Shown here one piece after another: positions 9,390 through 30,184 of a DNA stretch of 48,938 bases. Origin of the DNA: a virus; the IMG/VR virus record IMGVR_UViG_3300046009_004579, positions 1-48,938 of that record; one strand, given 5' to 3'. Position 1 is the stretch's first letter; the number at the start of each line of letters is the position of its first letter. The notes under the pieces are model-generated. The model was given only the letters and a program-made list of their open reading frames with translations. It did not search any database and had not been told where the DNA came from. The position numbers were made by a program, and so were the translations under genes.

Positions 9390-9614
9390 ATGGCAAAAAC
9401 AACAACAACAACAAAAACAGAAACACCAACTTCAAAAACACCAGATGAATTGGTTTTATTGGAAACCAGAAAAGTAAAAGCATTAGAAAAAATAGGCAAT
9501 TCTTTAGATGCTTTAGTTATTTGGTTTGAAGAAATTGACAAAGATGAGTGGAGTAAAAGAACTCAATATTATTTAGCAGAATTTCATAGAAAGATTGTTA
9601 AAGAAGAAGATTAA
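9390..9614 (+). CDS. Hypothetical protein, 74 aa, Thr-rich start
   Basis: The protein begins with a low-complexity Lys/Thr tail (MAKTTTTTKTETPTSKT) followed by a predicted helical body (LETRKVKALEKIGNSLDALVIWFEEIDKDEW) and a basic helix at the end. No family is recognised. Its final TAA overlaps the ATG of the first galactosyltransferase by one base (TAATG), so the two are likely translationally coupled. A role as a small partner or regulator of the enzymes behind it is only a guess. Confidence 0.6.
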   Translation: MAKTTTTTKTETPTSKTPDELVLLETRKVKALEKIGNSLDALVIWFEEIDKDEWSKRTQYYLAEFHRKIVKEED

Positions 9615-11023
9615 TGAAAAACAAATTAGGAATAATTGTTCCTTATAGAAATCGTTATGAACATTTAGAAAATTTTAAAAATGTTATAACCACTTATTTG
9701 GATTATACAAAAACAGATTACGAATTAATTATTGTAGAGCAAGACGATGCTAAACAATTTAATAGAGGAATGCTTCTAAACATAGGATTTCAATATGCAA
9801 AACAAAAAAAATGTAACTATGTTGTATTTCACGATATAGATATGTTACCTGTTGGAGTCGATTATTCTTATTCTGAAATCCCATTACATTTATCAACAAA
9901 TTTTATAACACCAGAAGGAGAAAAAGAACGAGTTATGTTTGATACTTATTTTGGAGGAGTAACTTTATTCCCTGTAAAGGATTTTGAAGAAATCGATGGA
10001 TATTCAAACAAATATTGGGGATGGGGATATGAAGATGATGATTTGTTATTTAGATGCAAAGAAAAAATGATTAGTTTAAACAAACTAAAAATAAAAAATT
10101 TGGGTAGAAAAGGAAAGGCTTTAAAATTCAATGGAATAAATTCTTATGTTAAAGCAAACAACATAATTGATTTTAATTCAAGCTTTTCAATTTTCATTTC
10201 TTTTTATCCAGATAAGTTGGAATTAAATCATTTAAAACAATCGGATGAGTTTACCATATTCAGTATACCTGGATATGACTTTGCAGTTTCTTATACATCA
10301 TTTAAAAGATACAATTTTTGTGCATTTGATAGTAATTTAAATGCATTGTATATTAATTCAAATATTAAAACAAATTACAAAACAAATATTGTAGTAAGTT
10401 TAGATGCAAATGATAAAATATTTAAAGTTTATCAAGATGGAAAATTTATAGGACAAACTGAACCATATAAAAGATTATACAAATATAGAACCCAACCAAA
10501 CTTTTTTTTAGGTGTTGGTAATCCTGATAGAGAAATAATTCCAAATTATTTTAAAGGATATATTGATTCATTTGCATATTATGATTCTATACTATCCGAT
10601 GGGGAAGTTTTGGAAATATCAACAACTACGGAAAACTTAAAAAAATTAAATTCAGGATATAATCTAAAAACATATTATGATGCAAATAATATAGTGAATT
10701 ATACCCTAAGAGATTTATCTAGAAATAATAATCATGCAGAAATCAATGGTTGTGAAATAGTTGATTTACAATTTGATGATTACACTGAAATACAAATACC
10801 ACATAGAAGGCCATCCACATTTCATTCTTTGAATCACGAAGAAAACGGATTTGTAAATAATGCATGGAAGGAACAAGCAACAAGATGGAATCAATTAAGA
10901 TTTGAAAATGAAGTTTGCAAACATTCATCATTGATAACAAGAGATGGGTTATCTACTTTGGAATATGTTGTACATGGAGAGAACAAAACAGGAAAAATAA
11001 CACATTTAAATGTTGGAATATAA
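9614..11023 (+). CDS. GT7-like galactosyltransferase with inserted LamG/lectin-like domain (copy 1)
   Basis: The N-terminal ~150 residues match beta-1,4-galactosyltransferase (GT7) motifs in order: IVPYRNR (8-14), FNRGMLLNIGF (49-59), VVFHDIDMLP (70-79, the metal-binding DxD equivalent), TYFGGVTLF (111-119) and YWGWGYEDDD (134-143, the catalytic WGWGxEDDD). The chain then enters a different fold, roughly 165-385, with LamG/concanavalin-like features: LKFNGINSYVKAN, LDANDKIFKVYQDGKFIG, FKGYIDSFAYYDSILSDGEV and LSRNNNHAEING. After it the GT7 C-terminus resumes with KHSSLITRDGLSTLEYVV and a final beta segment, resembling the SDGLNSLTYQV end of animal GT7 enzymes. The lectin domain is therefore inserted inside the catalytic domain. 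It likely transfers galactose or a related sugar. The next gene is a diverged tandem paralogue. Confidence 0.82.
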   Translation: MKNKLGIIVPYRNRYEHLENFKNVITTYLDYTKTDYELIIVEQDDAKQFNRGMLLNIGFQYAKQKKCNYVVFHDIDMLPVGVDYSYSEIPLHLSTNFITPEGEKERVMFDTYFGGVTLFPVKDFEEIDGYSNKYWGWGYEDDDLLFRCKEKMISLNKLKIKNLGRKGKALKFNGINSYVKANNIIDFNSSFSIFISFYPDKLELNHLKQSDEFTIFSIPGYDFAVSYTSFKRYNFCAFDSNLNALYINSNIKTNYKTNIVVSLDANDKIFKVYQDGKFIGQTEPYKRLYKYRTQPNFFLGVGNPDREIIPNYFKGYIDSFAYYDSILSDGEVLEISTTTENLKKLNSGYNLKTYYDANNIVNYTLRDLSRNNNHAEINGCEIVDLQFDDYTEIQIPHRRPSTFHSLNHEENGFVNNAWKEQATRWNQLRFENEVCKHSSLITRDGLSTLEYVVHGENKTGKITHLNVGI

Positions 11024-12426
11024 TGAAATTAGGAGTTTGCGTACCATATAGAAACAGAGAAGAACATATGAATATATTTGTTCCTCATATATCTAAATTC
11101 TTAGAAGAAAGAGGAATTGAACATACAATATATCTTGCACATCAATGTGATGACAAACTTTTTAATAGAGGTTTAATGAAGAACATTGCTGCCAAATATG
11201 CATTTGATGATGGATGTGATTACATCGTTTGGCATGATATTGATATGGTTCCAGAAGATGAAAGTTGTGATTATTCATTTCCAACCGATAATCCTCAACA
11301 TATTGCAGTTCGTATTTCACAATCCGATTATCAATTAAAATATGAAGAATACTTTGGTGGAGCGGTTGTATTCTCAAAAGAACAAGTAGAAAAAACCAAC
11401 GGTTACTCAAATGGTTATTGGGACTGGGGTATGGAAGATGATGACCTATTTTGGAGATGTGTAATGGAAGGATACGTCGAAAAGAAGAATTTAGAATATA
11501 GTGAAGAAAAATTCGTAGGATATTTTAATGGAAAAAACGCAAAAATAAATTATAGACCCTCTAGAGAAATAAAAGATAGTTTATCAGAATCACATACGGT
11601 TTCCGTTTTAGTAAAAGCAGACCAACAAATGGATAAAGTTCCAATTTGGTTAATAGGAGACAATGAAAGGCAATTTATAGAATATCCAATATTTAGAAAG
11701 CCAGGATACGATTGGGGATTATCTTTTAATAATAGTAGAGCATATACAATGCAACTATGGGATAGAATGAAAGGACATTTATATCAATGGATTAAGAGAT
11801 ATGAAAATCAATGGAGTTGGATTACAATGTCTGTTGATGCTGAAAATAAAAAAATACATTTTTATTTAAATGGTAGAGAAAGTGATGCAAGATTAGGAAC
11901 AGGAACACAATCACCATTAGAATACAATGAACCATTGAAACGATATGGTATGGAACCATTTAATATTGGTTATTCTAAATCTCCTGTTGAAATATTTTTT
12001 AAAGGATATATTTCTGATATCAAAATGTGGAATAGATGCTTAACTGCAAATGAAATAAAAAATTTACATAAAGAAATTCCACAAGAAAGTTTGATATTTG
12101 ATTTTGATTTTGATAACGAAGTAGATAATTTAGAAAATGTAGAAATTTTAAAAGAAAAAATAGAAATACCACATACGATATTACCTTATAGAAAAGATGG
12201 TAAATTTTTATGTTTACCCCACCAAACCGAAGGATTGATTAATGAAGGTGGTATTGATAAATGGGCAAAAGGTAAAACAACGGCAGAAAATGAAAGAAGA
12301 TATGTACTTCAAATGCAACAAGGTAAAATAAATTATAAAAAAGATGGAATTAATAGTATGGAATATGAATTTATTTCAATAGACACTATTTATAACAGGC
12401 ACAAAATGATAAATGTAAAAGCATAG
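11023..12426 (+). CDS. GT7-like galactosyltransferase with inserted LamG/lectin-like domain (copy 2)
   Basis: This 467-residue paralogue of the preceding gene has the same architecture. GT7 motifs are VCVPYRNREEH (5-15), LFNRGLMKNIA (47-57), VWHDIDMVP (69-77), YFGGAVVF (110-117) and YWDWGMEDDD (132-141, with W-D-W-G where the first copy has W-G-W-G). A LamG-like insert follows from ~165 to ~395 (FVGYFNGKNAKINY, SVDAENKKIHFYLNGRE, FFKGYISDIKMWNRCL). The GT7 C-terminal piece resumes near residue 440 with KKDGINSMEYEF. I start it at the ATG at 11023, which overlaps the previous stop as TAATG; a longer frame from 10915 would lie entirely inside the upstream gene. The paralogues have diverged strongly, suggesting different sugar acceptors. 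Confidence 0.82.
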   Translation: MKLGVCVPYRNREEHMNIFVPHISKFLEERGIEHTIYLAHQCDDKLFNRGLMKNIAAKYAFDDGCDYIVWHDIDMVPEDESCDYSFPTDNPQHIAVRISQSDYQLKYEEYFGGAVVFSKEQVEKTNGYSNGYWDWGMEDDDLFWRCVMEGYVEKKNLEYSEEKFVGYFNGKNAKINYRPSREIKDSLSESHTVSVLVKADQQMDKVPIWLIGDNERQFIEYPIFRKPGYDWGLSFNNSRAYTMQLWDRMKGHLYQWIKRYENQWSWITMSVDAENKKIHFYLNGRESDARLGTGTQSPLEYNEPLKRYGMEPFNIGYSKSPVEIFFKGYISDIKMWNRCLTANEIKNLHKEIPQESLIFDFDFDNEVDNLENVEILKEKIEIPHTILPYRKDGKFLCLPHQTEGLINEGGIDKWAKGKTTAENERRYVLQMQQGKINYKKDGINSMEYEFISIDTIYNRHKMINVKA

Positions 12427-12428
12427 TT

Positions 12429-13829
12429 ATGGCATATAAAAAACCTCTTTACGAAGATGTAAAGAATACTTTGGATGGTGTTGGTAAAGGAATGTGTTTG
12501 GCAAAATGGACACAAGTAACAGCACACCTACACACAGGACACAACCATAGTTGTCACCACCCAAATACACATAAAATATCAGAAGTGGAGATTGCACGAA
12601 ACCCATCAGCAATTCACAACACTTTGTTTAAAAAACAAAGAAGAAAAGAAATGATGAATGGTGCAAGACCTACTGAATGTGATTATTGTTGGGGTGTAGA
12701 AGATAATTCGGATTTGTATTCAGATAGAGTTTTTAAATCATCCGAAGATTGGAGTTGGCCATTGGCAGACCAAATTATTAATTCAAATTGGAGAGATGAT
12801 TTTAACCCACGTTATGTTGAGGTTGCATTCTCCAATACTTGTAATTTTAAATGTTCTTATTGTTCTCCGACATTTTCTACAACTTGGATGGATGAGATTC
12901 AACAATTTGGTGGTTATAATACAACCGACCATTTTAATGATTTGAAACATCTAGCTGCAGAACAAAAGATGCCAATTCCAAATAGAGAACACAATCCATA
13001 TGTAGAAGCATTTTGGAAATGGTGGCCAGAATTATATAGAGATTTGCATACGTTTAGAATAACCGGTGGTGAACCATTATTATCAAAAGATACTTGGAAA
13101 GTATTGGATTATATTATTGATGAACCAAACCCAAATAAAAATTTAGATTTTTCAATAAACACCAACTTAGGTGTGCCTGATGAATTGATTACAAAATTAA
13201 TTGAAAAATTAAAAAGAATTACCGAAGAAGATAAAGTAAAAGGGTTTGTATTATTTACATCTTGTGATGCATGGGGAGACCAAGCAGAATATATTCGTAA
13301 TGGTTTACAATTTCCTAGATTTTGGAATAATGTAAATAGAATTTTAAGAGAAGTTCCAAGAATTACTATTACATTTATGGTAACATACAATATGTTATCG
13401 GTATTTAGTTTTGATAAATTAATTAAGGGTGTATATCAACTAAAAAATGACTATGCAGGAGACGATAGATATTGGTTATCACCTGTATTATTAGATACAT
13501 CTTATTTAAGACATCCACGTCATCAAACGGTTCAAATACTTCCACATCAATTTAAACAAAACATATTTGACCAAGCTCAGTTAGCATTCTATCATGGTAT
13601 TCCATATTATTCAAAAGGATATGTTGGATATTCTGATTTAGAAATTCAAAAATTAAAAAGAACATACGATTGGGCAATATCACCCATAAAGGATGAAGAA
13701 TTACACAAAGCACGATACAATTTTTATCAATTCTTTAGCGAACATGATAAAAGAAGAGGAACTGATTTTTGCAAAACATTCCCTGAATTAGAAGAATTTT
13801 ATCATTTCACAAAAACAATACAGTTATAA
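12429..13829 (+). CDS. Radical SAM protein with extra N-terminal cysteines (twitch-like)
   Basis: The 466-residue protein carries the radical SAM cluster CNFKCSYC (CxxxCxxC, Cys138, 142, 145) followed by the SAM-binding FRITGGEPLLSKDTW, the conserved GGEP motif. Upstream are additional cysteines (Cys23, Cys42 and a CDYCWGVE pair at 84/87) in a P..C.YCW..E context. This is the pattern of SPASM/twitch-type auxiliary-cluster proteins, though here the extra ligands lie N-terminal to the core. Such proteins catalyse radical chemistry on peptides or sugars. The gene begins 2 bp after the second galactosyltransferase and ends 1 bp before the LamG gene, so it is part of the cassette. The substrate is unknown; a fibre peptide, the sugar or another cassette product are all possible. 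Confidence 0.8.
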   Translation: MAYKKPLYEDVKNTLDGVGKGMCLAKWTQVTAHLHTGHNHSCHHPNTHKISEVEIARNPSAIHNTLFKKQRRKEMMNGARPTECDYCWGVEDNSDLYSDRVFKSSEDWSWPLADQIINSNWRDDFNPRYVEVAFSNTCNFKCSYCSPTFSTTWMDEIQQFGGYNTTDHFNDLKHLAAEQKMPIPNREHNPYVEAFWKWWPELYRDLHTFRITGGEPLLSKDTWKVLDYIIDEPNPNKNLDFSINTNLGVPDELITKLIEKLKRITEEDKVKGFVLFTSCDAWGDQAEYIRNGLQFPRFWNNVNRILREVPRITITFMVTYNMLSVFSFDKLIKGVYQLKNDYAGDDRYWLSPVLLDTSYLRHPRHQTVQILPHQFKQNIFDQAQLAFYHGIPYYSKGYVGYSDLEIQKLKRTYDWAISPIKDEELHKARYNFYQFFSEHDKRRGTDFCKTFPELEEFYHFTKTIQL

Positions 13830-16085: not shown

Positions 16086-16816
16086 TGTATGATTTAATAA
16101 TAGGTTTCGGTTGTTCTTTTATGGAAGGTGGTGGACTTGATAATCCAGAAATTCATAAAAAAATAAATAAATTAAATAAGGTAGCAGACTTAGAAGATGC
16201 TATTACCTTTAAACATAAAAATAATTTTATTGCATATTTGGCAGAAATTTATAAATGTGAATATATTAATTTAGCAGAATCTAGATGTCCAAATGATTTG
16301 ATTTTTCAAAATATATACAACCATTTTAACAATAAGAAAATTGATAAAAAAATATTAATGGTCGGCCAAATTAGTTTATTTAGTCGTTTATATCTTTATT
16401 ATGAAAAAACAAAAGAATATTTAAAATTAAATAGTTTGGATTTTAATTTACCACCATTTAATAGTGAGGATAAGTATAAAGAATTATATCAATATTATGA
16501 AAATTATTTATCATATGTATATAATGAAAATTTAGTGTATAATAAAATTATTAGAGATATTACAACATATACAAAATGGTTAGAATCTATTGGAATTAGT
16601 TGTATTTGGTTGTCTTATGATGGAACCCCACATCAATTTTCAGAATCAAAAAATTTTACAAAATTCAACGGAGATAATTTGGGTGCATGGATTGAAAAAA
16701 ATAAATTAAGATTATGTGATATTCCTGAATTAGAAACAGGAGATTTACATATGTCAATTGAAGGACATGAATTAGTAGCAAAAAAAATATATGAACATTT
16801 AAATAAAAATTTATGA
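16085..16816 (+). CDS. SGNH/GDSL-hydrolase-like protein (1 of 4)
   Basis: The 243-residue protein starts LIIGFGCSFMEGG, where GCSF takes the place of the GDS block I with its nucleophilic Ser. It ends with ETGDLHMSIEGHELVAKKI, the D-x-x-H block V with catalytic Asp and His. SGNH enzymes remove or transfer acyl groups, and in sugar clusters typically handle O-acetyl groups. I use the ATG at 16085, overlapping the RmlC stop; an earlier TTG-type start at 16043 would lie inside RmlC. Three other SGNH-like genes are in this cassette. Whether it acts as an esterase or transferase is not known. Confidence 0.7.
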   Translation: MYDLIIGFGCSFMEGGGLDNPEIHKKINKLNKVADLEDAITFKHKNNFIAYLAEIYKCEYINLAESRCPNDLIFQNIYNHFNNKKIDKKILMVGQISLFSRLYLYYEKTKEYLKLNSLDFNLPPFNSEDKYKELYQYYENYLSYVYNENLVYNKIIRDITTYTKWLESIGISCIWLSYDGTPHQFSESKNFTKFNGDNLGAWIEKNKLRLCDIPELETGDLHMSIEGHELVAKKIYEHLNKNL

Positions 16817-17451
16817 TACAAAATTTAGAACAATATCCAATAGTAAGAACTGAAGCCGAAATTGGTTGGACATCGGAAAAACTAATCAGCTTTGAAAATA
16901 AAATAGTAGAACATTGGGAAAATGCAAAAATAACAGGCCCTATCCACTTATCAAATGGGAATGAAGAACAACTCATTGAAATATTCAAAAGAGTTTCGAA
17001 AAATGATTGGGTATTTAGTACATGGCGTTCTCATTACCATTGGTTGTTAAAAGGAGTATCGGCCGACTATGCAGAGGAACTTATTTTGCAAGGTAAATCT
17101 ATAACCCTATGTGATATAGATGAAAAATTCTATGCTTCTGCAATTGTAGGAGGTACTCTATCAATTGCATTGGGAGTTGCAATGGGAATCAAGCAAAAAG
17201 GAACTGACGAAAAAGTATTTGTATTCATTGGTGATATGTCATTTGAAAGTGGTATATTTTATGAAGTTCATAAATATGCAAGAAACTTTGACTTACCAAT
17301 TGTATTTGTTGTAGAAGATAATGATGTTTCAACTTATACACCAACCGAAGCAACTTGGAATACAAAAAGAGAAATCCCATCGGATGTAATTCATTATACA
17401 TATAAATCAAAATTCCCACATTATGGAACTGGAAAGTGGATTGCCTTTTAA
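16813..17451 (+). CDS. Thiamine-diphosphate enzyme, E1-alpha-like (PP-domain) subunit
   Basis: This 212-residue protein resembles only the diphosphate-binding half of 2-oxoacid dehydrogenase E1 alpha. It includes DWVFSTWRSHYHWLLKG (65-81), GGTLSIALGVAMG (113-125), and the ThDP/Mg motif GDMSFESG...LPIVFVVEDNDVSTY (140-175), where the usual GDG..NN reads GDM..DND. E1 alpha subunits are normally 320-360 residues; this one stops shortly after the ThDP motif. The likely partner is the Pyr-domain gene at 24963. Between them they would form a minimal two-chain ThDP enzyme that could attach or remove a two-carbon unit on a keto sugar. The ATGA overlap with the SGNH gene indicates co-expression. Confidence 0.72.
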   Translation: MIQNLEQYPIVRTEAEIGWTSEKLISFENKIVEHWENAKITGPIHLSNGNEEQLIEIFKRVSKNDWVFSTWRSHYHWLLKGVSADYAEELILQGKSITLCDIDEKFYASAIVGGTLSIALGVAMGIKQKGTDEKVFVFIGDMSFESGIFYEVHKYARNFDLPIVFVVEDNDVSTYTPTEATWNTKREIPSDVIHYTYKSKFPHYGTGKWIAF

Positions 17452-21855: not shown

Positions 21856-22499
21856 AAGAAAATTTATTTGAAAATGGATTTATTTCTTTTAAATTAAAAG
21901 ATTTTGATGAAAATTTATATAATAAATTAAAAGTTTTATTTCCTATCGGAACATTAAAACCAGAGATGTTTGATAATTTAAAACACTCAATAATATCTGC
22001 AGAACATAATTATCCAAATCATTTATTAATGGGAAAACCATTTATTGAATTGGATAAAATAAAATATGATATTATAGAAAAATATGAATATACATGTGAC
22101 CAACTTTGGTACTTTGGTTGGCCATATGATGCAAAAGCAGAAAAAACACCATTTACGGAAATAATAAAACCTTTGTTTAAATATTTTTATGATGAAGAAT
22201 GTGAGGGTGCAAGTTCACAAGTTACAATGTATAATGATGGTTGTTATTTAAAAAATCACACCGATGGAAATGGTGGTTATACGGGAGATAGACATTGTGC
22301 AATATTAATTTATTTATCAAACGAATATGAAAAGGGAAAAGGTGGAGAAATGGTATTGAGCAAAAACAAAACAGATGAAGTATGGGTAGAACCAATATAT
22401 GGTAATGTTGCTATATTTGATTTTACAAAACATGACATTTGGCATAGAGTAGAAAAAATAATCGGATATAACAGATATTGTTTTATTAATTTTTGTTAA
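21840..22499 (+). CDS. 2OG-Fe(II) oxygenase (prolyl-4-hydroxylase-like)
   Basis: This 219-residue protein has the full double-stranded beta-helix ligand set: HTD (His140, Asp142) and a distal His202 (DIWHRVEK) to bind iron, then Arg212 (NRYCFINF) to bind 2-oxoglutarate. The SSQVTMYNDGCYLKNHTDG stretch is typical of prolyl-4-hydroxylase-like enzymes. It could hydroxylate a protein side chain or a sugar. The next gene carries the same domain at its N-terminus, so the cassette contains two neighbouring oxygenases. The start at 21840 overlaps the upstream gene by 16 bp. Confidence 0.85.
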   Translation: MGTLLKENLFENGFISFKLKDFDENLYNKLKVLFPIGTLKPEMFDNLKHSIISAEHNYPNHLLMGKPFIELDKIKYDIIEKYEYTCDQLWYFGWPYDAKAEKTPFTEIIKPLFKYFYDEECEGASSQVTMYNDGCYLKNHTDGNGGYTGDRHCAILIYLSNEYEKGKGGEMVLSKNKTDEVWVEPIYGNVAIFDFTKHDIWHRVEKIIGYNRYCFINFC

Positions 22500-22528
22500 T
22501 TTCAAAAAAAATCATTATATTGTATAGT

Positions 22529-24142
22529 ATGAAAAAAGAAGCATTTAAAACGTTTGTCATATCAGATGAACACAAAGAAGTCATAAGTAAATTAATAAAT
22601 TCTCCTTTAGAAATTAAAGGGATGAGAGCAGCGTTGGAACACATTGGTAACCCACCAGTACAACTACCAGATACATTTGAAAAGACAAACGAAAATTTTA
22701 ATGATTTTAAAAAAGAAATTTTAGAAAAAAATAATAATGTATATCAAATGTGGTATACATTAAATAAACCAACAGGAATGGATAATGCTGTAAAGAATCT
22801 TTTGAAAGATATTTTTACAGAAAATTATCCTGAAGTAACAGAACCAGTTGAAATAATGTGGGATTTTACTATGTTTGATGAAGGATGTTATATAAAAGAA
22901 CATTTGGATGGCAGAGACCCAAAAAGAATAGCTGGTATATTAATTTATCTTAATGAAAATTACGATGAATCTAATGGTGGTTTATTAAAAGTTATTCACC
23001 CTGATACAAATGAAGAAAGTTATGTTATTCCAGAATTTGGAAATACAATTTTAGTAGATTATACAGAAAACGAAGTATCACATGAAGTTACCGAAGTTAA
23101 AAAAGGAAAAAGATTAGCAATTTGCGCATTTATACACAAAATAAATTTTATGGACAAAACAAAAAAAGTATTAGTTACGGGAGCAAGTGGATTTATAGGT
23201 TCACAATTAGTAAAAACATTATTAGATAAAGGATATGTGGATATTAGAACCACTTCTTTTGGTAGAGATTTGCCAAAGTCTCTAACTGAATATACTCAAT
23301 TGGAACACTATAAAGGTGATTTAAGAGATGCAGAATTTTGTGAAAAAGTGAGTAAAGATGTAGATGTTGTATTTCATTTAGCAGCAAACACATCCAACGC
23401 ATTAGATACTAAATTTAATCCATTATTACATGTTACTCCAAATGTGGAAATGAATGTAAACTTAATGGAACAAAGTTGGAGAAATGGTGTTAAAAAATTT
23501 ATGTTTATATCATCTAATACAACTTATCCTGATATGGGAGATAAATTTTGTAAAGAAAATTTAGATATACATGGAACACCATTACTTCCAATATATAAAG
23601 CAGTTGGTGGTATGAAAAGATATGGTGAAATGTTATGTGATTTCTTTTCTAATCAAATTCACAACCCAATGCAATGTATAATTATTAGACCTTCAAACGC
23701 ATTTGGCCCTAATGATAAATTTGATTTTGAAAAATGCCACGTTACACCTGCAAATATCCGTAAGGTAGCAGATGGATTGAATCCAATTCCATTATGGGGT
23801 GACGGAACTGAAATAAGAGATTTATTACATGTTGAAGATATGGCTGAAGGGTTTTTATGGGTTGCTGAAAAATGTGCAAGATATGATATCGTAAATGTTT
23901 GTTATGGTGAAGGATTTAGTGTTAATCAAGTATTAGGGTGGTTACAAGAGATGGAAGGAAATACAAATCCAATAGAACATACAAATAATAAAGCTCCTAT
24001 GATTCCTGTTCGTTTATTATCATCTGAAAAAATAAACAAAATGGGTTGGAAACCAAAGAGAGATTTAAAACAAGCTCTTAAAGAAACTATGGATTGGTAT
24101 AAAGAAAATAAACATTTATATAATCCAAATTCAAAACCATAA
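22529..24142 (+). CDS. Fusion of 2OG-Fe(II) oxygenase and NAD-dependent epimerase-like SDR
   Basis: A single 537-residue chain joins two enzymes. Residues ~1-205 form a 2OG-Fe(II) oxygenase with HLD (His125, Asp127), distal His185 (VSHEV) and Arg195 (KRLAICAF). Residues ~208-537 form an extended SDR with VTGASGFIG (Gly218/221/224), HLAANTSNA and RPSNAFGP motifs. The reading frame continues across the junction with no stop; the SDR part begins at an internal MDKTKK, which could also serve as an internal start. The SDR Lys363 (GGMKRYGE) has Val, not Tyr, four residues earlier; the nearest Tyr is 356. I use the ATG at 22529; the frame extends to a TTG at 22493 inside the previous gene. The fusion suggests oxidation and sugar modification in one pathway. 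Confidence 0.85.
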   Translation: MKKEAFKTFVISDEHKEVISKLINSPLEIKGMRAALEHIGNPPVQLPDTFEKTNENFNDFKKEILEKNNNVYQMWYTLNKPTGMDNAVKNLLKDIFTENYPEVTEPVEIMWDFTMFDEGCYIKEHLDGRDPKRIAGILIYLNENYDESNGGLLKVIHPDTNEESYVIPEFGNTILVDYTENEVSHEVTEVKKGKRLAICAFIHKINFMDKTKKVLVTGASGFIGSQLVKTLLDKGYVDIRTTSFGRDLPKSLTEYTQLEHYKGDLRDAEFCEKVSKDVDVVFHLAANTSNALDTKFNPLLHVTPNVEMNVNLMEQSWRNGVKKFMFISSNTTYPDMGDKFCKENLDIHGTPLLPIYKAVGGMKRYGEMLCDFFSNQIHNPMQCIIIRPSNAFGPNDKFDFEKCHVTPANIRKVADGLNPIPLWGDGTEIRDLLHVEDMAEGFLWVAEKCARYDIVNVCYGEGFSVNQVLGWLQEMEGNTNPIEHTNNKAPMIPVRLLSSEKINKMGWKPKRDLKQALKETMDWYKENKHLYNPNSKP

Positions 24143-24962: not shown

Positions 24963-25502
24963 ATGAATACACCACAATTTTCTCCATATAAAGATGCATT
25001 AACAAATGCAATGACGGAATTGGCAAAATTAAATGATACAATTTTTATAGGTCAACAAATAGTTTATGCGGGAAATCCTATGAGCACAACATTGGGTGAA
25101 GTGCCAAAAGAAAAGATGATTGAAGTACCTGTTATGGAAGAAACTCAAATGGGTATGACTTTGGGATTGGCCATAACCGGAAAACAAGTTATAAGTTTTT
25201 ACCCACGTTGGGATTTTATAGTATCAGCTGCAAATCAATTAATAAATCATGTTGATAAATTTGAAGTAATGACAGGTAAAAAATTAAATATTATAATTCG
25301 TCTGGGAAAAGGTTCAGATAAACCATTAGACCCTGGACATCAACATAAAGGAAACTACATAGATGAATTTAAATCTTTATGTAAAAATATTGAATTTCAC
25401 GATTTAAAAACACCTACCGATATCGAATTGGCCTACAAATATGTAACCAAAGAAGGTGGCGTTCATGTACTTGTAGAATATCCTGAATTATATTATAGTT
25501 AA
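24963..25502 (+). CDS. Thiamine-diphosphate enzyme, E1-beta-like (Pyr-domain) subunit
   Basis: The 179-residue protein corresponds to the pyrimidine-binding domain of E1 beta/transketolase. Evidence is VMEETQMGMTLGLAITG (58-73, with the ThDP-activating Glu60), then SFYPRWDFIVSAANQLINHVDKF (78-100), a strong match to the conserved beta-subunit strand where F..R.DF...A.NQ..N is typical. E1 beta is usually about 325 residues because it also has a C-terminal transketolase domain; this copy lacks it entirely. The complementary PP-domain subunit is at 16813, some 7.5 kb upstream. Both are of minimal length, which suggests a small two-chain enzyme. Confidence 0.72.
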   Translation: MNTPQFSPYKDALTNAMTELAKLNDTIFIGQQIVYAGNPMSTTLGEVPKEKMIEVPVMEETQMGMTLGLAITGKQVISFYPRWDFIVSAANQLINHVDKFEVMTGKKLNIIIRLGKGSDKPLDPGHQHKGNYIDEFKSLCKNIEFHDLKTPTDIELAYKYVTKEGGVHVLVEYPELYYS

Positions 25503-27736: not shown

Positions 27737-30184
27737 ATGAATTTAAATGAATTAGAATTTAATGAAGAATTTCCTGGAGGAATAGGTACCGGATTAGTTT
27801 TACCTGGTGGGTATATTAATGGTGCACCAAGTGAGTCAATTTCAAAAATAATGACTTCAAATGAAGAAGAAAAAATATTTGAAGAATTTGTAGATGAATA
27901 TTTTACTATTTTAGAAAAAACACTTAACAAACCAGAAACACAGGCCGACTACGACTTTGCAAAACGACACAAGGATGACATAGGTCACCACGCAGAATTA
28001 GATACAATCGATTTTGATGATAAAAGAAGAAAAGAACCAGGACATCAACCTAATAAACAGGATGATGAAGAATTTGGATATGAACCTGTAAAAAACGAAA
28101 GTATTTTAACAGAAGGTGGAGCTGCAGGACATTTGGCACATCCGTTTGAAGATGAAAATCTAAAGTTCTCTGATATGAAATCCATGCTTAGTAAAGGATT
28201 ATTAGGAGGATTGGATTCAGAAGCTCCGGTTAGTGAAAAATTAGACGGCCAAAATATTGCATTTACCGTAAAAGATGGTAATATAAGATTTGGTAGAAAC
28301 AAAGGTCATGTTAAAAATAGTGGAGAAAATGCATTAGATGTTCAGGGAATTACAAAACAATTTGCAGGAAGAGGTGGAATTGAAAAAGCTTTTACAGGTG
28401 CAGCAGAAGATTTACATGCGGCTGTTTCAAAATTAAAACCAGAACAAGTTAAAAAAATGTTTGGTAATGGTTCTAAATTTATGAGTTTGGAAATTATATT
28501 ACCTGATACTACAAATGTAATTCCATATGGTAGAAGTGTATTGGTAATGCATGGAACAATTCAGTATGATAAAGAGGGAAATGAGGTAGGACGTTTCAAT
28601 GAAGATGCACAATTATTCGCAACAGCAGTTCAAAAAGTCGGTGCAGATAAACAAAAAACATTTGGAATAGAAGGCCCTAAAACGATTGCATTTTCCGATG
28701 AACCAACAAAGGAATATTTGGATAAATACAAATTATATGATAAACAATTATCCAATTTACAAAAACAATATGGTTTAACTGATAAATCTAAATTAGAAGA
28801 TTATAGAAGAAAATGGTGGGAAAATGAAATTAATAACCAAGAAAAACAATTAGGTGTTAAATTTTCCCCATCACAGAAAAAAGGTTTAATTAAAAGATTT
28901 GCAGATGGTGATAAAACATTTGGAGTAAAAAACTTAGAGCAACCGGCACAACAAGAATGGTTTAGAAATTTTGAAACAAACAAATTACAGGCATCTCAAA
29001 AACAAATGATTAAACCAATTGAGAGTGTATTTTTAAGTGCAGGTGCACAGACATTAAAAAGAGTAACAAACTTTTTAGCAGCAAATAATCCTGGTGCAGC
29101 TGATGCATTAAGAAAAGAAACTTTACAATCAATTAAAGGAATCAAAGATAGTAAAGATATTGATAAGATTGCAAAATTACAAATTGAATTAGAAAGATTA
29201 AACAATATCGGTATGGATAATATTGTTCCATCCGAAGGAGTTGTATTTCAATATAAAGGAAAACCATACAAATTTACAGGAGCATTTGCACCTATAAATC
29301 AAATTCAAGGAACTTTTAAATTTGATAAACCAAAAAAGAAAGAAGAAACTCCTGTATCTGGAAAAGAACAACCAAAAGAAAATAACAAAAAAACAATAGC
29401 TATTTTCTCCGGTAGATTCCAACCATTTCATGCAGGACATTATAGTATTTACAAATCATTGGTTGATAAGTTTGGTAAAGATAATGTATATGTTGCAACC
29501 TCAAATATTGTTGACCCAATTAAGTCTCCATTTCCATTTAAAGATAAGAAACAAATTATGACTACAATGTTTGATATACCAAAAAACAAAGTAGTAATGG
29601 TAAAAAATCCATATGCACCAACAGAGATTTTAGAAAAATTCCCACCAGAAACTTCATATGTCACTGCAGTATCGGAAAAAGACGCAGAAAGATTACAAAG
29701 AAATGATAAATACTTTAAAAATATAGAAGATGTCCCATCAGAAAAAAGAAAGGGATATGGTGATGAGGGGTATTTTATAATTGCACCTGAAATGCAGTTA
29801 AAAGTAAATAGAAAGAATATTAGTGGCACTCAATTAAGAGCAACTTTTGGAAATGATTTATTATCTGCAAAAGAAAAGAAAGATATATTCAATCAAGTTT
29901 ATCCTAAATTTGATAGAGAAGTTTTTGCAAATATTGTAAATACAACTAAAAAGGCAGAAGTATTAAAAAAATCAAAACAAGTTACTAAAGATACAGCTTT
30001 AAAATCAAAATTAAAATCATTAGACCCTAAAACTAAAAAGAAAGTACAAAAAGCTTTACAAACTAAAATTAAAAATCCTGTTACTGGAAACACAATATTA
30101 GTTAAATCTGCATTAAAATATGATGATAGTCAAGCAGTAAAAAAACTTGCAATTGGTCTAATAAAACAAGCTATGAAAAAATAA
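27737..30184 (+). CDS. Polynucleotide-ligase-like and nicotinamide-nucleotide-adenylyltransferase-like fusion
   Basis: The 815-residue protein joins two nucleotidyl-transfer domains. Residues ~125-525 look like a DNA/RNA ligase core: motif I EKLDGQN (Lys168 of KxDG, the candidate adenylated Lys), motif III-like KFMSLEIILPDTTN (~247-260), motif IV EGVVFQYKG (500-508) and motif V-like KFTGAF. Residues ~552-760 look like an NMN adenylyltransferase: FSGRFQPFHAGHYS with HAGH (565-568) and the second conserved loop ISGTQLR (695-701). The tail is Lys-rich. N-terminal ~110 residues are acidic and unassigned. The gene may seal nucleic acid, make NAD, or couple both. Motif-level evidence is strong for both domains, but the biological role is unknown. 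It lies between the sugar cassette and the packaging genes. Confidence 0.85.
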   Translation: MNLNELEFNEEFPGGIGTGLVLPGGYINGAPSESISKIMTSNEEEKIFEEFVDEYFTILEKTLNKPETQADYDFAKRHKDDIGHHAELDTIDFDDKRRKEPGHQPNKQDDEEFGYEPVKNESILTEGGAAGHLAHPFEDENLKFSDMKSMLSKGLLGGLDSEAPVSEKLDGQNIAFTVKDGNIRFGRNKGHVKNSGENALDVQGITKQFAGRGGIEKAFTGAAEDLHAAVSKLKPEQVKKMFGNGSKFMSLEIILPDTTNVIPYGRSVLVMHGTIQYDKEGNEVGRFNEDAQLFATAVQKVGADKQKTFGIEGPKTIAFSDEPTKEYLDKYKLYDKQLSNLQKQYGLTDKSKLEDYRRKWWENEINNQEKQLGVKFSPSQKKGLIKRFADGDKTFGVKNLEQPAQQEWFRNFETNKLQASQKQMIKPIESVFLSAGAQTLKRVTNFLAANNPGAADALRKETLQSIKGIKDSKDIDKIAKLQIELERLNNIGMDNIVPSEGVVFQYKGKPYKFTGAFAPINQIQGTFKFDKPKKKEETPVSGKEQPKENNKKTIAIFSGRFQPFHAGHYSIYKSLVDKFGKDNVYVATSNIVDPIKSPFPFKDKKQIMTTMFDIPKNKVVMVKNPYAPTEILEKFPPETSYVTAVSEKDAERLQRNDKYFKNIEDVPSEKRKGYGDEGYFIIAPEMQLKVNRKNISGTQLRATFGNDLLSAKEKKDIFNQVYPKFDREVFANIVNTTKKAEVLKKSKQVTKDTALKSKLKSLDPKTKKKVQKALQTKIKNPVTGNTILVKSALKYDDSQAVKKLAIGLIKQAMKK

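Follow-up and report, generated by a model that had tools for sequence, protein, structure and literature searches.

Two adjacent viral genes, P0001 (A) and P0002 (B), almost certainly encode proteins in which a single GT7 catalytic domain is interrupted, after the WGWGxEDDD helix, by a LamG/pentraxin-type beta sandwich of ~235 residues. The chain that follows the insert almost certainly completes the GT7 fold by supplying the metal-binding histidine, the lid and the last strands. The genes lie in a window of 48,938 nucleotides, which is the whole stretch of DNA analysed here (IMG/VR record IMGVR_UViG_3300046009_004579) and a viral contig with T4-like head genes coding for a terminase, a portal and a major capsid protein, the capsid protein being ~55% identical to its counterparts in Flavobacterium phage immuto and Microcystis phage Mel-JY01. 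Sugar-related genes are grouped at positions 6777-27599 of the window, downstream of the gene for a 1649-residue protein, and the presence of NAD-epimerases and a dTDP-sugar isomerase around the gene pair sets it in a sugar context (Table 1).

Table 1. Positions in the window of the two interrupted GT7 genes, their parts and their 3′ neighbours
Feature	Position	Strand	Description and evidence
P0001 (A)	9614-11023	+	469-aa ORF
P0001 GT7 N-terminal half, residues 1-155	9614..10078	+	Pfam Glyco_transf_7N/7C; HHalign E 1.5e-81 against uninserted bacterial GT7; beta4GalT1/T7 matches in PDB
P0001 inserted LamG/pentraxin-type domain, residues ~158-393	10085..10792	+	Laminin_G_3; AF2 pLDDT >90, strands 156-395; Foldseek CRP/SAP TMt ~0.67-0.68
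P0001 GT7 C-terminal part, residues 394-469	10793..11020	+	Carries metal-ligand His408, the lid and the DGLSTLEY strands; uninserted GT7 matched by HHalign at E 3.8e-14
P0002 (B)	11023-12426	+	467-aa ORF; ATG overlaps the P0001 stop
P0002 GT7 N-terminal half, residues 1-153	11023..11481	+	Pfam GT7N/7C; HHalign E 3.4e-82
P0002 inserted LamG/pentraxin-type domain, residues ~156-385	11488..12177	+	Laminin_G_3; homology with the insert of P0001 from end to end (HHalign E 1.2e-88)
P0002 GT7 C-terminal part, residues 386-467	12178..12423	+	His400, lid helix, DGINSMEY strands; HHalign E 1.3e-14; second-domain match to beta4GalT1
Twitch-domain radical SAM enzyme (NF033640)	12429..13829	+	NCBIfam E 1e-105; synteny
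Stand-alone LamG-like protein P0003	13831-14565	+	Insert homologue at family level (HHalign 99%, E 6e-19 / 7e-20)

The GT7 motifs that the original prediction had read by eye in both proteins are present. The N-terminal half of P0001 carries PYRNR, FNRG, HDID (the DxD motif) and WGWGYEDDD, as well as YFGG; the acidic motif reads WDWGMEDDD in P0002, and the C-terminal strand reads DGLSTLEY in P0001 and DGINSMEY in P0002. The DxD and WGWGxEDD motifs, the FNR arginine and the metal-ligand histidine are all found in the two proteins. A search for GT7 and LamG profiles in one chain, which had been proposed along with the prediction, retrieved both: Glyco_transf_7N, Glyco_transf_7C and Laminin_G_3 scored above the Pfam curated cut-offs in P0001 as well as P0002, with Laminin_G_3 placed at residues 174-332 (E 7e-8) and 188-346 (E 3e-11), respectively. 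The concanavalin-like region had been rightly located, although its length is nearer 235 residues than the ~220 first proposed.

Structure prediction, also proposed at the outset, yielded confident AlphaFold2 models when alignments of relatives were supplied (pLDDT 95.1 and pTM 0.90 for P0001; 93.1 and 0.87 for P0002). Foldseek matched the N-terminal part of these models to beta4GalT1 and beta4GalT7 and, separately, the following residues to pentraxins (CRP and SAP, TMt up to 0.68), the LamG domains of PAPP-A and 4dqa, in line with the Laminin_G_3 profile and with a jelly-roll fold. The C-terminal piece was not joined to GT7 in these local alignments, which, like those of single-sequence phmmer, covered GT7 over residues ~2-165 only. 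Such coverage is what one would expect if the GT7 core ended near residue 150, with a C-terminal beta sandwich and some further fold making up the remainder, a reading to which we give next to no weight in view of the profile alignments. Against a template of 76 uninserted bacterial GT7 proteins, HHalign aligned the N-terminal parts with columns 1/2-154 at E 1e-81 or better and the last 76-82 residues with columns 149/150-226 at a probability of 98.4-98.5 (E 1.3e-14 for the P0002 family and 3.8e-14 for the P0001 family), compared to E 0.13-0.93 only for 20 column-shuffled C-terminal pieces of the P0002 family; the early end of the core was rejected on these grounds. By the same method, neither the insert matched GT7 (E 0.9-1) nor the C-terminal piece the insert (E 0.8). 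Conversely, 71 bacterial GT7 proteins matched the inserted-family profile in two parts lying a median of 1 residue apart in the protein and 240 positions apart in the profile, and the same profile found both parts in beta4GalT1 too. The metal-ligand histidine and the DG motif, moreover, are invariant.

Pfam, AlphaFold2, Foldseek, HHalign and the 71 uninserted bacterial proteins thus all bear out the split core that had been predicted, with a beta sandwich between the acidic motif and the C-terminal strands and with the last residues (~76-82, aligning to uninserted GT7 at E ~1e-14) returning to GT7; the opposite outcome envisaged at the time, in which the last 70 residues of the chain would belong to the sandwich, was not seen and is excluded to the extent that sequence allows. 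P0001 and P0002 both depart from the uninterrupted catalytic domain of GT7 structures in the PDB, the ~235-residue insert being located between the catalytic helix and the lid. The insert does not exclude GT7 homology of the two proteins; the interruption defines a variant.

The first half of the catalytic domain ends with the helix after WGWGxEDDD, and the second half resumes ~10-12 residues before the metal-ligand histidine. In the alignment to beta4GalT1, profile position 154 corresponds to chain position 218 and profile position 415, after the insert, to chain position 233, which would put the insertion point near residue ~329-332 of human B4GalT1 in a numbering derived from the profile alignment. 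The lid of the human enzyme (residues 338-365) folds over the substrates and contributes to acceptor binding; in the dimer, residues 328-334 have been modelled close to the acceptor site of the partner chain (PMC6198961). This alignment and the published extent of the lid together suggest a position of the insert at the base of the substrate lid, by which the acceptor site is formed.

Residues R49, D72, D74, Y110, W135, E138, D139 and H400 (P0002 numbering) are invariant in the alignment rows of both classes (51/51 for B and 35/35 for A). The tyrosine that chooses the donor in beta4GalT1 (bovine Tyr289, human Tyr285) is conserved here as Y112/Y110. Both enzymes are probably active, metal-dependent transferases and, since the donor-choice tyrosine is invariant, probably users of UDP-galactose. 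The lid sequence reads ..TRWNQLRF.NEV in A and W.KGETTA.NE.R[YF] in B; as it differs between the two classes while being nearly constant inside each, it suggests that A and B have two different acceptors or roles.

P0001 and P0002 are paralogs whose inserts share homology from end to end and interrupt the core at the same point, which is most simply read as one insertion followed by duplication. In a tree of the GT7 core, a single clade of inserted proteins was not rejected (p-AU 0.469), nor was it shown. Mean pairwise identity is lower in the insert than in the N-terminal core (0.37 vs 0.61 in A and 0.47 vs 0.73 in B), and few insert residues are common to A and B, so that none could be assigned to a sugar- or calcium-binding site. 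F168, G170, G316 and G328 (P0002 numbering) are kept in at least 87% of A and B rows, the three glycines in all of them. Suggestive only is a relation of the insert to ordinary phage LamG proteins by circular permutation: a YxD...DxSGNxNxG strand is the last in the insert and the first in the ordinary proteins, and rotated-profile scores gave no clear gain.

The GT7-LamG architecture belongs to a group of uncultured tailed phages and was found in well over 100 viral contigs but in none of the named phages searched, with 249 candidate stretches retrieved for P0002 and 53 for P0001. Gene order was counted in the 80 viral contigs kept for P0002. A lies immediately 5′ of B in 78 of them, while in the other two an A-like gene is truncated by the edge of the contig. 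Because the pair recurs in so many independent contigs, its origin in a chimeric or chance assembly was rejected. A radical-SAM gene directly follows B in 79/80 contigs; the last carries an in-frame fusion of GT7-LamG B (residues 1-450) with the radical-SAM enzyme in a protein of 914 aa (L016:4001-6745). The phage cassette was further found in genome assemblies L136-L138 and L141. The architecture is not exclusively viral, as two assemblies encode a related GT7-LamG protein of the same architecture followed by a GT2-domain protein (L140:4941-6428 and L139:409-1881). L140, a 66-kb contig with LRR kinase, SNF2, GT2, ABC transporter and HlyD genes, looks bacterial by its genes; L139 is its 78% relative, and the two are the only ones among 168 genomes of that phylum. 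GT7-LamG proteins were absent from 50,697 phage records searched by tblastn, the viral structure library BFVD returned no full-length counterpart (best query TM 0.41), and none of the solved and predicted structures searched has a GT7 core interrupted by a LamG-type domain. Searches of open-access papers turned up no description of an internal LamG domain in a GT7.

The cassette reads GT, methyltransferase, GT2, GT7-LamG A, GT7-LamG B, radical SAM, LamG protein and nucleotide-sugar enzymes, and the neighbouring GT, methyltransferase, GT2, epimerase and dTDP-sugar isomerase genes recur among relatives. The LamG protein is P0003, which had been noticed near the pair from its letters; although it alone has no Pfam match, its family proved homologous to the insert. 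The module also occurs on the radical-SAM enzyme of relatives, in which the radical-SAM domain is preceded by one LamG-type region (L114:3126-5231) or, in an NF033640 enzyme, by two (L108:6849-9434). A third paralog, C, is encoded upstream of the A-B pair in 33/80 contigs (e.g. L024:815-2260, L025:748-2202 and L053:814-2307) and retains the insert; many of its members lack the FNR arginine, the ED pair or the metal histidine and are likely pseudo-transferases. Other LamG proteins of these phages (L096:459-1208, L103:36-746 and L103:1363-2136) start with MPINVNGN, MPIDLNGN or MPLDLTGN, end with KYGL or RFGL and have the usual LamG order, opposite to that of the insert. Elsewhere in the window, an ORF at 22493-24142 joins a 2OG-Fe(II) oxygenase domain (126-215) to an NAD-dependent epimerase domain (226-470), and two TPP-enzyme fragments, one E1/DXP-synthase-N-like and the other transketolase pyrimidine-binding-like, lie 7.5 kb apart (16813-17451 and 24963-25502). 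The 815-aa protein encoded at 27737-30184 displays by eye, in its second half, a GRFQPFHAGHYSIY motif typical of nicotinamide-nucleotide adenylyltransferases.

With regard to function, we lean on balance towards paired GT7 transferases acting in a cassette, the insert recognising or positioning the acceptor, being coupled to the lid, or both. A and B would transfer sugars sequentially within the conserved phage cassette, the inserted module recognising a glycan or glycosylated carrier and positioning it for transfer; alternatively, the module might couple glycan recognition to lid closure, by analogy with what alpha-lactalbumin does in trans for beta4GalT1. That relatives carry this module on their radical-SAM enzyme too suggests a target common to the cassette enzymes. 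The position of the insert and its context make a built-in acceptor reader plausible; the greater variability of the insert relative to the N-terminal core counts against it. A more elaborate version, in which a viral recognition module spread through the whole cassette, into the two GT7s and degenerate C and onto or next to the radical-SAM enzyme, marking them for a common acceptor in the manner of an address tag while serving as an alpha-lactalbumin-like acceptor gate in the GT7s, is offered tentatively.

The main rival to acceptor reading is a tether or assembly role, in which the insert would link both transferases with the radical-SAM enzyme and P0003, or fix them to a carrier (e.g. a virion protein), without reading an acceptor sugar at the active site. 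The module is inserted, stand-alone and radical-SAM-fused within one cassette, the A-B-radical SAM order is nearly invariant, and paralog C keeps the insert although many of its members have lost catalytic residues, such that the module may serve something besides catalysis. Tethering could, however, be achieved by fusion at an end, as seen in the radical-SAM enzyme, with no need for a position at the base of the lid, and we regard this role as rather unlikely. Less probable still is a tolerated insertion of little consequence for the enzyme, whereby a permissive loop received one of the abundant LamG modules of these phages and has kept it since. Ordinary GT7s do function without an insert, LamG-type proteins are encoded at several flank positions, and the insert evolves faster than the N-terminal catalytic half; yet A, B and degenerate C all retain it, no A or B ortholog without it was seen among the loci examined, and the four conserved positions noted above speak against such a reading.

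The point of interest is that a lectin-type module interrupts the catalytic fold beside the acceptor-forming lid, in two paralogs that are retained together in nearly all of the viral contigs examined. Should the insert control the acceptor, nature would offer here a design by which the specificity of a glycosyltransferase can be programmed, and an uncharacterised phage pathway comprising two GT7s and a radical-SAM enzyme would be indicated. Such a pathway would probably act on glycans of the host surface or of the virion in uncultured T4-like phages, which are widespread.

Among known systems, beta-1,4-galactosyltransferases 1 and 7 (CAZy GT7; PDB 2ae7, 4irp and 3lw6) have in common with the phage proteins the GT-A core, DxD, WGWGxEDD, the metal histidine, the lid region and the DGLxSLxY end, with a profile match at E 1e-50; their chain, in contrast, runs directly from the catalytic helix to the lid where P0001 and P0002 are interrupted. 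Both GT7 halves likewise align with bacterial and phage GT7s of 210-280 residues (e.g. L142, L166, L288 and L129), which lack the insert and in which the junction is a turn of ~10 residues before RRxGxFxxLxH. Animal beta4GalTs are Golgi membrane proteins, and beta4GalT1 makes lactose. In lactose synthase, acceptor use is altered by a second domain placed on the acceptor side of GT7, a likeness by functional analogy only, since alpha-lactalbumin is a separate and unrelated protein whereas its phage counterpart is a beta sandwich within the chain. In Aureococcus anophagefferens virus, the beta-1,4-GalT AaV_274 and LamG proteins were reported as separate (PMC7507832). The Foldseek match to AaV_274 extends over ~170 columns and involves the GT part only. 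Lectin modules of glycosyltransferases are usually located at an end, and lectins of other folds are end-joined in polypeptide GalNAc-transferases (ricin-type), plant GT31 enzymes (galectin) and B4GALNT3/4 (PA14). Pentraxins, Laminin_G_3 domains and sialidase-associated lectin domains (CRP, SAP and 4dqa) have the same fold as the insert but are free-standing or end-joined, whereas the phage domain sits inside the glycosyltransferase.
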